NCBI GenBank assembly: GCA_005223185.1
Contig: NJBN01000001.1
Location: 505,365 to 569,364, forward strand
Reading direction: 5' to 3'
Length of the DNA stretch: 64,000 nucleotides
Source of the DNA: a candidate division LCP-89 bacterium B3_LCP
GTDB lineage: Bacteria > Electryoneota > B3-LCP
Shown here: piece after piece, positions 7,539-10,806 of the stretch
Layout: each line of letters begins with the position of its first letter
How positions within the stretch are numbered: the first letter of the stretch is position 1
Notes under the pieces: model-generated
What the model was told of the DNA's origin: nothing
The model's database searches: none
Seen by the model: only the letters and a program-made list of their open reading frames with translations
Program-made: the position numbers and the translations under genes

Positions 7539-8408
7539 TTATGCCAGAATCTCTTTCATCTTGTTGCCGATTTCCGCAGGTGACTGACAGACGTGAATCC
7601 CGGCCGCTTGCAGAGCAACCATTTTTTCTGAGGCTGTCCCTTTTCCACCAGCTATAATCGCGCCTGCATGTCCCATACGTCTCCCCGGGGGTGCAGTTTG
7701 TCCCGCAATGAATGCTACTACAGGTTTCTTAAATTCAGCCTTTACATAGTCAGCAGCATTCTCTTCAGCGGTTCCTCCAATTTCGCCAATTACGACCACC
7801 CCGTCAGTATTCTGATCTTCATTGAACAGCTTAAGCAGATCGGTGAAGGTTGACCCTATCACCGGATCGCCCCCGATACCGATACAGGTGGACTGTCCCA
7901 GACCCTGCGCAGAAAGCTGACCGACAGCTTCATAAGTGAGGGTGCCGGATCTTGATATTACGCCGATGCGTCCTTCCTGATGAATGAAACCCGGCATGAT
8001 ACCTACCTTGCACTGTCCGGGGGTAATAACGCCCGGGCAGTTGGGCCCCACCAATCGGGTTTTCGTCTTCTGGAGATAGTGGTACGCAGTCAACATATCC
8101 TTGGTGGGGATGCCTTCCGTGATGCATACCACCAGATCTAAACCTGCATTGGCGGATTCCATGATGGCATCCGCGGCGAATGGCGGCGGCACGAAAATAA
8201 CTGAAACGTTGGCGCCTTCCTCTTTCACTGCATCAGCTACGGTATTGAAGACCGGTTTGTCCAGATGTTTCTGACCGCCTTTACCGGGTGTTACACCGCC
8301 AACCAGATTGGTGCCATACGCAATCATCTGTTCAGCATGGAAAGTGCCTTCACTGCCGGTGAAACCCTGTACGATGACGCGGGATGATTTATTGACTAAA
8401 ATGCTCAT
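7539..8408 (-). CDS. sucD: Succinyl-CoA synthetase (ADP-forming), alpha subunit
   Basis: 289 residues, canonical length. The CoA-binding domain begins with [18 protein letters not shown] (12-29); GPNCPGVI and [14 protein letters not shown] follow, and the phosphorylated histidine lies in RRMGHAGAI near residue 248. With SucC it interconverts succinyl-CoA and succinate with substrate-level phosphorylation. The start codon directly abuts the stop of the DUF4325 gene, so sucD is separated from sucC by two regulator-like genes, an unusual arrangement. The product of KorABCD is its substrate. Confidence 0.97.
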
Positions 8409-8723
8409 TTATGCAGATACTTCCTTTCGCGCAAGACGCAATTTTGCCAGATGGACAATCAAATGTTCATCACAAGGATCTATATTTATGAATTTTAGAC
8501 GCCGTTTTACTTCTTCTTTGGGAAATTCGTTAAATAACTTCGCAATTTCATCAAATAATGAGCCAGAAGCTACGGTCTCGTTCTCAAAATCGAGCTCAAC
8601 GATCTCATAATGGCTCCATTGGAATACAATCACATCATTGATTATGCTACCGATTTCGCGTAATGACCCGGGTTGGTTCAACCACTCTTTGAATATCAAT
8701 GTAATTTTCGTTCCTGGTACCAT
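8409..8723 (-). CDS. DUF4325 (STAS-like) protein
   Basis: 104 residues with no catalytic motif. The core VELDFENETVASGSLFDEI (about 41-59) resembles the STAS-like DUF4325 family: a beta-strand ending in an acidic patch, then a serine-containing loop at a helix start, as in anti-sigma antagonists. It directly abuts the STAS-HATPase gene upstream (stop TAG 8724-8726) and the sucD start downstream, so the three are co-translated. DUF4325 proteins commonly neighbour GHKL ATPases. A partner-switching role controlling this metabolic block is inference. Confidence 0.72.
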   Translation of the reverse strand: MVPGTKITLIFKEWLNQPGSLREIGSIINDVIVFQWSHYEIVELDFENETVASGSLFDEIAKLFNEFPKEEVKRRLKFINIDPCDEHLIVHLAKLRLARKEVSA

Positions 8724-9604
8724 CTAAAGTTCTTCCCAATCTGAAGTACTAAGATAGTAAAAATCTCTGCGAGTCTTTATAGATAGATTTACCATTGTTC
8801 CGGGGAAAGCTATATCCAACAAAGTCTTTTTGATATCCTTTGAAATATCCATTTTCGCCTTCCCTGATAGTATCGTTAATGAAGCCTCATTCTTTTCTGC
8901 TACATCGCGGAGCAAATACAGACCAATGCCTCTTTCGTCTGATTTACTGGAAACTCCGTATTCTGCAGCTTTATCAACAGCGTCAATATCATTTCTTAGA
9001 TCAGGATATCTTTGACTTGTTATCATGGATTCGGGAATTCCTATTCCTGTATCCAGAATACAGAGCCTCACTATCTGCTTACTCGGAACTGAGTAGGCAC
9101 ACATATAACAGTGGTCTGTCTGTCCATGTTCAAAGGAGTTTTCAATAACTTCACGAATTGCGAAATGCACTGCCTTATGAAAGTTCTCAACCCCTCGGAG
9201 TTTCTCCGTTAAAATTTGGGTTACTTGCCCAGCCAGAGGATAACTCGGTTCAGCAAGTCTGGTCACAGGAAAAGATAAAAACCACTTTGGCAATTTATGT
9301 GAAACTTCTGGATTCAAGTATTTCTCAATCCCCAGACCAAGAAACTGATTTTTAGCATTACTGTGCAGTTTAGGTGGAATTATTTCGCATATCTTACCTC
9401 TCTCAGCAAGTCCATCCCATAAAGCCGCGAACCAACAGGCAGTAAAGGGACTAATCCACCAGACCTTCGAAGCATCTATTACAATTTTTTTCTCAGTGCA
9501 CTTTAAGCTTCTACGAAGATTCTTGTTAGAACAGGAGCTCGTGAAATCTTTAAGTCTGCTGGCAGAACGATATGTCCGGGACTTAAGAAGTACTTATCCT
9601 TCAT
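8724..9604 (-). pseudogene. STAS-HATPase (GHKL) regulator, disrupted by a frameshift near 9505
   Basis: The C-terminal part (TTG at 9317 down to 8724) is a histidine-kinase-like ATPase: N-box EVIENSFEHG, G1 box DTGIGIP, G2 box RGIGLYLL. The same frame continues upstream of 9317 with STAS-like sequence (KIVIDASKVWWISPFTACW) but has no ATG, GTG or TTG before its TAA at 9596-9594. In the neighbouring frame an ATG at 9604-9602 overlaps the sucC stop as ATGA and reads MKDKYFLSPGHIVLPADLK...FVEA before a TAA at 9505-9503. Joining the two at that TAA restores a continuous STAS-HATPase of about 293 residues; ATG to stop is 881 nt, one short of a multiple of three. Either a real mutation or an assembly error. 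No sensor or His-phosphorylation domain is seen, so it resembles SpoIIAB/RsbW-type kinases fused to STAS. Confidence 0.75.
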
Positions 9605-10806
9605 TGCACTGCCACAGTTACCTTCTTCGCCGCATCCTGGAAATCGGAAGCTACCAGGAAGTTCAAACCTGACGCTTTGAGGATTTCCCCGGCTTCCTTG
9701 TGATTGGTGCCTGCCAGACGAATTATTACCGGAACCTTCAAACCACCTAATGCTTCTACCGCTTCCACAACGCCTTCAGCCACACGGTCACAACGGACAA
9801 TGCCGCCGAATATATTTATCAGGATTGCTTTGACGTTGGGATCCGTGAGGATGATGCGGAATCCGTTTCTTACAGTTTCGGCTGAAGCAGCGCCGCCCAC
9901 ATCTAAAAAGTTTGCCGGTTCGCCACCGGCTAACTTGATCAAGTCCATAGTAGCCATTGCCAGACCGGCTCCGTTGACCATACAACCCACGTTTCCGTCA
10001 AGTTTGATGTAGTTCAGGTTGTACTTGGATGCCTCGATCTCGGCTGGTTCTTCCTCTTCCAGATCCCGGTATTCCATTATGTCCGCATGTCTGAAGAGGG
10101 CATTATCGTCGAAATTGATTTTGGCGTCCAGGGCAATGACGTCGCCCTCTTTGGTGATCACCAAGGGATTGATTTCAGCTAAGGAAGCGTCAGTATCACG
10201 ATACGCCTGGTAAAGTTTCAGGAAAAACTTGACTGCGCTTTTCTGCTGCTGACCTGCTAATCCTAAGGCGAATGCCAGTTGGGATGCCTGGAATGGACGC
10301 AGTCCGGTTCCAGGATCAATGCGTACCTTGACGATTTTTTCGGGCGTTTCAGCCGCGACTTTCTCGATTTCAACGCCGCCTTCTGTAGAGACCATGAAAA
10401 CGTCCATGGCGCATTCTCTATCCAGAACGATACCAGCATAAAATTCTCGATCTATATTGCAGCCTTTTTCGATCAGAATACGCCGAACACGCCTTCCCTG
10501 CTCGCCTGTTTGGTGTGTGATCAAAAGGTTGCCAAAAATATTCCTGGTGAACTCGCGTACCTCGGTTTCATCCCTGGCAATTTTTACCCCGCCTTCCATA
10601 ATCAGCTGGGTTGTATCATCGGGATTGTAGAGGTTACCTTTGCCGCGCCCACCTGCATGGATTTGGGATTTAACCGCGCAAACACCTCCTCCGAGACCTT
10701 TGTAAGCCTGAACAGCTTCGTCATCGGAAAACGCTACTCTTCCCTCAGGAACGGGTACACCATACTTTCGTAAAACCTGCTTTCCCTGGTATTCGTGAAT
10801 TTTCAT
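9601..10806 (-). CDS. sucC: Succinyl-CoA synthetase (ADP-forming), beta subunit
   Basis: 401 residues, slightly longer than the E. coli protein (388). The N-terminal ATP-grasp signature KIHEYQGKQVLRKYGVPVP, the metal and nucleotide-binding SLAEINPLVI, and the C-terminal GNVGCMVNGAGLAMATMD and FLDVGGAAS motifs are intact. It forms the heterotetramer with SucD and holds the nucleotide site. It is first of the suc genes, 48 bp after arcC. Its TGA is shared with the ATG of the STAS-HATPase gene. Confidence 0.97.
   Translation of the reverse strand: MKIHEYQGKQVLRKYGVPVPEGRVAFSDDEAVQAYKGLGGGVCAVKSQIHAGGRGKGNLYNPDDTTQLIMEGGVKIARDETEVREFTRNIFGNLLITHQTGEQGRRVRRILIEKGCNIDREFYAGIVLDRECAMDVFMVSTEGGVEIEKVAAETPEKIVKVRIDPGTGLRPFQASQLAFALGLAGQQQKSAVKFFLKLYQAYRDTDASLAEINPLVITKEGDVIALDAKINFDDNALFRHADIMEYRDLEEEEPAEIEASKYNLNYIKLDGNVGCMVNGAGLAMATMDLIKLAGGEPANFLDVGGAASAETVRNGFRIILTDPNVKAILINIFGGIVRCDRVAEGVVEAVEALGGLKVPVIIRLAGTNHKEAGEILKASGLNFLVASDFQDAAKKVTVAVQ

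Follow-up and report, generated by a model that had tools for sequence, protein, structure and literature searches.

Two kinase–STAS pairs, CapK with CapS and VapK with VapS, were described in June 2026 in anti-phage systems (PMC13373217). CapK-CapS consists of an HTH-STAS-GHKL kinase and a STAS-wHTH repressor encoded upstream of immune operons; CapK, the GHKL kinase, is activated by ssDNA and phosphorylates CapS, which frees CapS from DNA (PMC13373217). In VapKSC, the STAS-GHKL kinase VapK is combined with the STAS antitoxin VapS and the PIN nuclease VapC. VapK was proposed to be activated by ssDNA as well, and VapS binds and inhibits the VapC encoded next to it, in a complex that is broken by a phosphomimic at S48 (PMC13373217).

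Here we analysed a pair of this kind located between the succinyl-CoA synthetase genes sucC and sucD of candidate division LCP-89 bacterium B3_LCP (GCA_005223185.1). The whole stretch of DNA that was analysed, referred to as the window, comprises 64,000 nucleotides (contig NJBN01000001.1, positions 505,365 to 569,364), and positions below are those of the window. The preliminary description of this DNA knew of no described case. This was too strong for the module itself, because its nearest relatives, CapK/CapS and VapK/VapS, have been described (PMC13373217), but it stands for the placement, as our literature search brought up no account of such a pair in this position.

Gene order and protein features of the pair

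The pair lies on the minus strand in the gene order cdpgs-like, arcC-like (AA_kinase), sucC, STAS-HATPase, DUF4325, sucD, ferredoxin, korA, korB, korC, ndk, hbd-like and ackA, in which the short gene names are our own and some were assigned by inspection. The sucC gene (9601-10806; PF08442, 4.7e-74, and PF00549), encoding the beta subunit of succinyl-CoA synthetase, matches its counterpart in a Lake Pavin sediment MAG (G013, JAPKYS010000013.1) at 79%. It is followed by the STAS-HATPase gene (8724-9604), which is GHKL kinase-like, more precisely CapK/VapK-like, and is frameshifted as assembled. Its HATPase_c domain was located at 8871-9182 by PF02518 (3.6e-06) and by conserved alignment columns, and an intact ortholog of 294 aa is found in G013 (L048:4641-5525). 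The next gene (8409-8723) encodes a STAS-like, VapS-like DUF4325 protein of 104 aa (PF14213, 9.4e-07, 28.9 bits against a cut-off of 23), the sole PF14213 match in the source genome, and precedes sucD (7539-8408; PF02629, 3.9e-29, and PF00549, 5.7e-26), encoding the alpha subunit. All four genes are on the minus strand. The TGA stop of sucC overlaps the ATG of the STAS-HATPase gene in an ATGA at 9604-9601, the DUF4325 start (8723) comes directly after the kinase stop (8724) with zero gap, and sucD (start 8408) begins at the base that follows the DUF4325 stop (8409).

The gene order and the near-zero or ATGA junctions given in the preliminary description were both observed; however, the kinase frame that starts at 9604 does not stay open. 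Tight spacing is also kept in relatives, in which the junctions of the seven resolved loci range from -20 to +12 nt, and sucD directly follows the DUF4325 gene in all resolved relatives. Because this spacing persists despite divergence of the kinases to about 25-30% identity between subgroups, the tight coupling is conserved. The insertion between sucC and sucD is real, conserved and unusual.

The intact G013 kinase matched PF02518 above the cut-off and STAS_2 weakly. In its AlphaFold2 model (mean pLDDT 84), the HATPase half matched SpoIIAB (TM about 0.70, by target) and the N-terminal half matched STAS antagonists of the RsbS/RsfB type (0.6-0.71), which agrees with the earlier assignment of the pair to a broad GHKL-kinase/STAS kind. 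The N-box (E..N...H), G1 (DTGIGIP) and G2 (RGIGL) are intact in the window HATPase and are followed by the GT motif, and all four motifs are conserved among the aligned kinases. For the partner, the one significant match of the DUF4325 family profile to a solved structure was Escherichia VapS (9z7o_A, E=3.7e-15); a predicted DUF4325 model gave no significant match in the PDB. The partner contains an invariant Ser55 (codon 8559-8561) at the start of the second helix and a near-invariant Ser53 (codon 8565-8567). The Pfam results showed no HTH domain in the kinase (294 aa) or in the partner (104-105 aa).

Searches of an anti-phage library gave weak matches alone, such as DrmA. The PADLOC profile PDLC02567 (DrmA) weakly matched both the HATPase (4.5e-08) and the DUF4325 protein (5.3e-04) at L068:4386-5590, which hints at a fused kinase/STAS-like module in the N-termini of some DrmA proteins. 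Single chains of about 350 aa in other phyla (L090, L091, L093, L100, L101 and L108) were observed by inspection to join a DUF4325 C-terminus to a GHKL-like region and an N-terminus that resembles a winged helix.

The closest known kind of the suc-linked pair is the CapKS/VapKSC kinase–STAS pair, not a sigma-factor switch. As in VapKSC, adjacent STAS-HATPase and DUF4325/STAS genes are arranged in the order kinase, STAS partner and neighbour. The kinase is, like VapK, a STAS-GHKL protein without HTH, with the GHKL motifs common to both, and the partner is homologous to VapS by the profile match to 9z7o_A. Unlike VapKSC, the suc-linked pair has no vapC PIN nuclease gene and belongs to a housekeeping operon with sucD in the vapC position, and in the kinase tree the suc type branches apart from the PIN type. 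The position of the VapS S48 column was inferred by taking the expression tag off the chain numbering. At this column, VapS and the PIN-linked partners have Ser or Thr, but all 11 suc-linked rows have G, A, I or V and never Ser/Thr. The suc-linked partners contain an invariant Ser one residue after this column and mostly another Ser one residue before it. Where several PIN-type kinase rows read WFDAN, the suc-type reads xxPF; the rows compared were without Escherichia VapK, whose F54 is an ssDNA-binding aromatic residue. CapK-CapS likewise pairs a STAS-GHKL kinase with a STAS protein, but no HTH was detected in either protein of the suc-linked pair, which is located within an operon rather than upstream of one.

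Distribution and evolutionary history

We searched 39 genomes of the phylum for the kinase and SucD and mapped the matched regions. The pair was found between sucC and sucD in 11 of the 39, across four families. Seven carriers (G000, G013, G003, G036, G015, G016 and G018) have the pair region on one contig, and four (G008, G001, G021 and G005) give partial views, with contigs that end inside the insert. The two suc genes are adjacent in 21/39 genomes, and the remaining counts include five genomes that are unresolved or without the gene. In family f3, the order of sucC, kinase, partner and sucD is kept, and the fetched flanks of the f3 carriers are without kor/ndk genes. Outside the phylum, no DUF4325 gene adjoined sucD in a 386-genome sample, among the SucD matches listed (to E about 1e-115) and the fetched loci. 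A collection scan with the window kinase as query gave no match, and a scan with a three-row alignment matched two named loci, those of G013 and of G001 ('Calditrichaeota bacterium AABM5.125.24'), two genomes that may belong to GTDB phylum AABM5-125-24.

Because 11 of the 39 genomes carry the pair exactly there and the kinases form one clade, the arrangement is above chance, and the pair between sucC and sucD is a clade trait. The preliminary description had named relatives with adjacent sucCD and an unlinked pair as counter-evidence. Such adjacency occurs, in the 21 genomes above, but the pair is not unlinked in them: it is absent, or a different clade is present in another operon.

Other contents of the sucC–sucD junction were also observed. 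A DUF4325 gene without a kinase, beside a short predicted membrane ORF, is located there in G025 (L073:6320-7233), a methyltransferase gene in G010 (L051:4209-4946), and in G039 (L069 6890-7265) an HTH_17 ORF together with what may be a RelE-like partner. In G012 (L150, about 1706-2455), a fragmentary STAS-HATPase with an internal stop was found beside an RNase III-like gene, and sucC and sucD are adjacent. The inserts in G010, G025 and G039 could suggest an insertion hotspot, but other junctions also show a few large gaps, and a hotspot is not claimed.

In the kinase tree, all 10 suc-linked kinases long enough to be placed were on one side of a single branch (support 99/99.7), separate from moxR-linked, PIN-linked, acs-linked and other kinases. 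In the partner tree, PIN-linked partners and VapS formed one clade (98/95) with the suc-linked partners outside; the DUF4325 tree alone gives no suc clade, and such a clade was not rejected (p=0.21). Mapped on the sucC+sucD tree, presence of the pair showed 9 changes among 36 tips, a value equally low in 214 of 500 label shuffles. Since presence is as scattered as shuffled labels, sucCD works without the pair. The pair is dispensable and often lost, and comparisons of carriers with non-carriers gave no clear separating column in SucC or SucD. The kinase of G001 groups with f1 kinases and its SucCD with f2, possibly through horizontal transfer. A single origin of the association, then many losses, perhaps with transfers in place, fits both the kinase tree and the sucC+sucD tree.

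Related pairs were found in other operons. In four genomes of family f6 (G026, G029, G035 and G036), a related pair is flanked upstream by a gene for a MoxR-type AAA ATPase and downstream by a DUF58 gene (L167:3065-6110, L165:2121-5158, L151:3246-6263 and L166), the contig of the G036 locus ending just after the pair. The moxR-linked pairs have tight junctions and form their own clade (100/100). In two genomes of another phylum (G158 and G396; L152:2405-7194 and L175), the pair has an acetate-CoA ligase gene on one side and kbl on the other. The moxR- and acs-linked kinases are on branches separate from the suc-linked kinases and their neighbours differ; the partners in both share a Ser at column +1 from S48. 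Sets like vapKSC, with STAS-HATPase, DUF4325 and PIN-type genes, or parts of such sets, were found in G003, G283, G294, G068 and G147 (L168:4693-6488 in G003, L156 and L158), with the PIN confirmed by Pfam for G283.

Candidate clients of the pair

We tentatively favour, with a probability of about 0.45, the reading that the pair is a two-gene CapK/VapK-VapS-like module that lacks the HTH and PIN parts, became established between sucC and sucD in the phylum ancestor or early within the phylum, serves as a phospho-switch on a client, likeliest succinyl-CoA synthetase, and has often been lost and is possibly broken in the source genome. The STAS-HATPase would phosphorylate the DUF4325 protein at the conserved Ser region, and phosphorylation would alter the grip of the partner on its client. 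SucD, encoded next door, or SucCD is the first client candidate because in vapKSC the protein inhibited by VapS is encoded by the following gene, and by analogy the likeliest client would be succinyl-CoA synthetase. The 11/39 carriers in four families, the kinase clade (99/99.7), the tight junctions, the gene order kept in f3, the fold matches of the G013 model, the VapS profile match (3.7e-15), the inhibition of VapC by VapS and the related pairs in the moxR-DUF58 and acs-kbl operons argue for a switch on the synthetase. The S48 column that is never Ser/Thr, the scattered presence, the absence of a tracking SucC/SucD column, and the frameshifts here and in G018 argue against it.

As for the signal, direct sensing of ATP/ADP had been suggested earlier and is conceivable, with the ATP-binding fold as its sole support. 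CapK is activated by ssDNA, as VapK was proposed to be. For the suc-linked pair, ssDNA is as possible a signal as a metabolite.

It is possible, although we do not consider it probable, that the pair, as a relative of CapKS/VapKSC, acts in stress or immune regulation on a client located elsewhere, merely gains steady expression from the sucCD operon, and comes and goes as an accessory gene. Such a regulator would fit the patchy presence, the divergence of the kinases (about 25-30% identical across subgroups, against about 67-86% for SucD of the phylum genomes compared with window SucD), the description of the known relatives as immune modules (PMC13373217), the other inserts at the junction (the G010 methyltransferase and the G039 HTH ORF), and the related pairs in several different operons. 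However, a single clade has stayed at the same site, tightly joined to its neighbours, across families, and no nuclease, DNA-binding or other effector gene is located beside the pair.

A wider form of the synthetase switch appears doubtful. A CapK/VapK-type kinase and a VapS-like partner would have been taken over from conflict systems, or the reverse, as a direct phospho-switch on a central-metabolism enzyme, with DUF4325 binding SucC/SucD and holding or releasing the synthetase according to the signal read by the kinase and the related pairs acting likewise on MoxR/DUF58 and on acetyl-CoA synthetase/Kbl. If true, the recruited switch would be a general client-swapping kinase–STAS module.

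The interrupted kinase gene and remaining alternatives

The preliminary description had overlooked a frameshift in the STAS-HATPase gene. Read as a single gene, 8724-9604 contains many stops. The ATG frame from 9604 encodes MKDKYFLSPGHIVLPADLKISRAPVLTRIFVEA and then meets a TAA at 9503-9505. A 1-nt lesion (GAAGCT-TAAAG, 9503-9508, minus strand) was located by comparison with the G013/G001 sequences, and after it the -1 frame resumes as LKCTEKKIVIDASK. This -1 frame is open from 9593 to 8724, holds the remaining STAS and the entire HATPase, and has its first ATG/GTG/TTG only at 9317. In the alignment, the intact G013 ortholog (294 aa) follows the first frame as far as '...EA' and the second from 'LK...' onwards, so both frames belong to a single gene that carries a 1-nt lesion. 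No comparable frameshift was found in the other window genes syntenic with G013. The kinase gene of G018 is likewise frameshifted, independently, with STAS and HATPase in different frames. Programmed -1 frameshifting is not favoured, as inspection found no standard X XXY YYZ heptamer in the overlap of the window or G018 gene.

Substitutions unique to the window lineage numbered 24, 10 and 39 at the three codon positions, with 39/73 at third positions. Because this bias persists and the HATPase motifs are intact despite the lesion, it either arose recently or reflects an assembly error. As the kinase gene is frameshifted, the switch in the source genome may be dead, or the assembly may be one base wrong. 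That the source genome keeps only a decaying remnant, with the kinase a recent pseudogene and the DUF4325 partner alone still made, seems improbable; the lesion with its in-frame TAA among otherwise unbroken G013-syntenic genes, the independent frameshift in G018 and the DUF4325 gene kept without a kinase in G025 are consistent with decay, but the third-position bias and the intact motifs point to a recent lesion or an assembly error.

A classical sigma-factor partner switch, with the HATPase as anti-sigma factor and DUF4325 as anti-anti-sigma factor, is very unlikely: the HATPase domain is structurally like SpoIIAB, the GHKL fold, N/G1/G2 boxes and STAS fold of the fused domain are shared with SpoIIAB/SpoIIAA and RsbW/RsbV, and SpoIIE-type phosphatase genes are present elsewhere in the source genome, but the STAS domain is fused to the kinase, the DUF4325 partner is closest in sequence to VapS rather than to RsbV/SpoIIAA, the operon is metabolic, and no sigma-factor gene was recognised among the genes examined around the pair, with targets elsewhere in the genome possible.

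The descriptions of CapKS and VapKSC date only from 2026 and present them as regulators of immunity or stress (PMC13373217). The separate clade inside sucCD, together with the pairs in moxR-DUF58 and acs-kbl, suggests that the module has a wider use than defence, and the neighbouring gene products provide a ready set of candidate clients. The suc-linked pair is a specific case, open to bench tests, in which a serine kinase possibly controls succinyl-CoA synthetase, and it suggests that the same kind of switch as in anti-phage systems may also control core metabolism.
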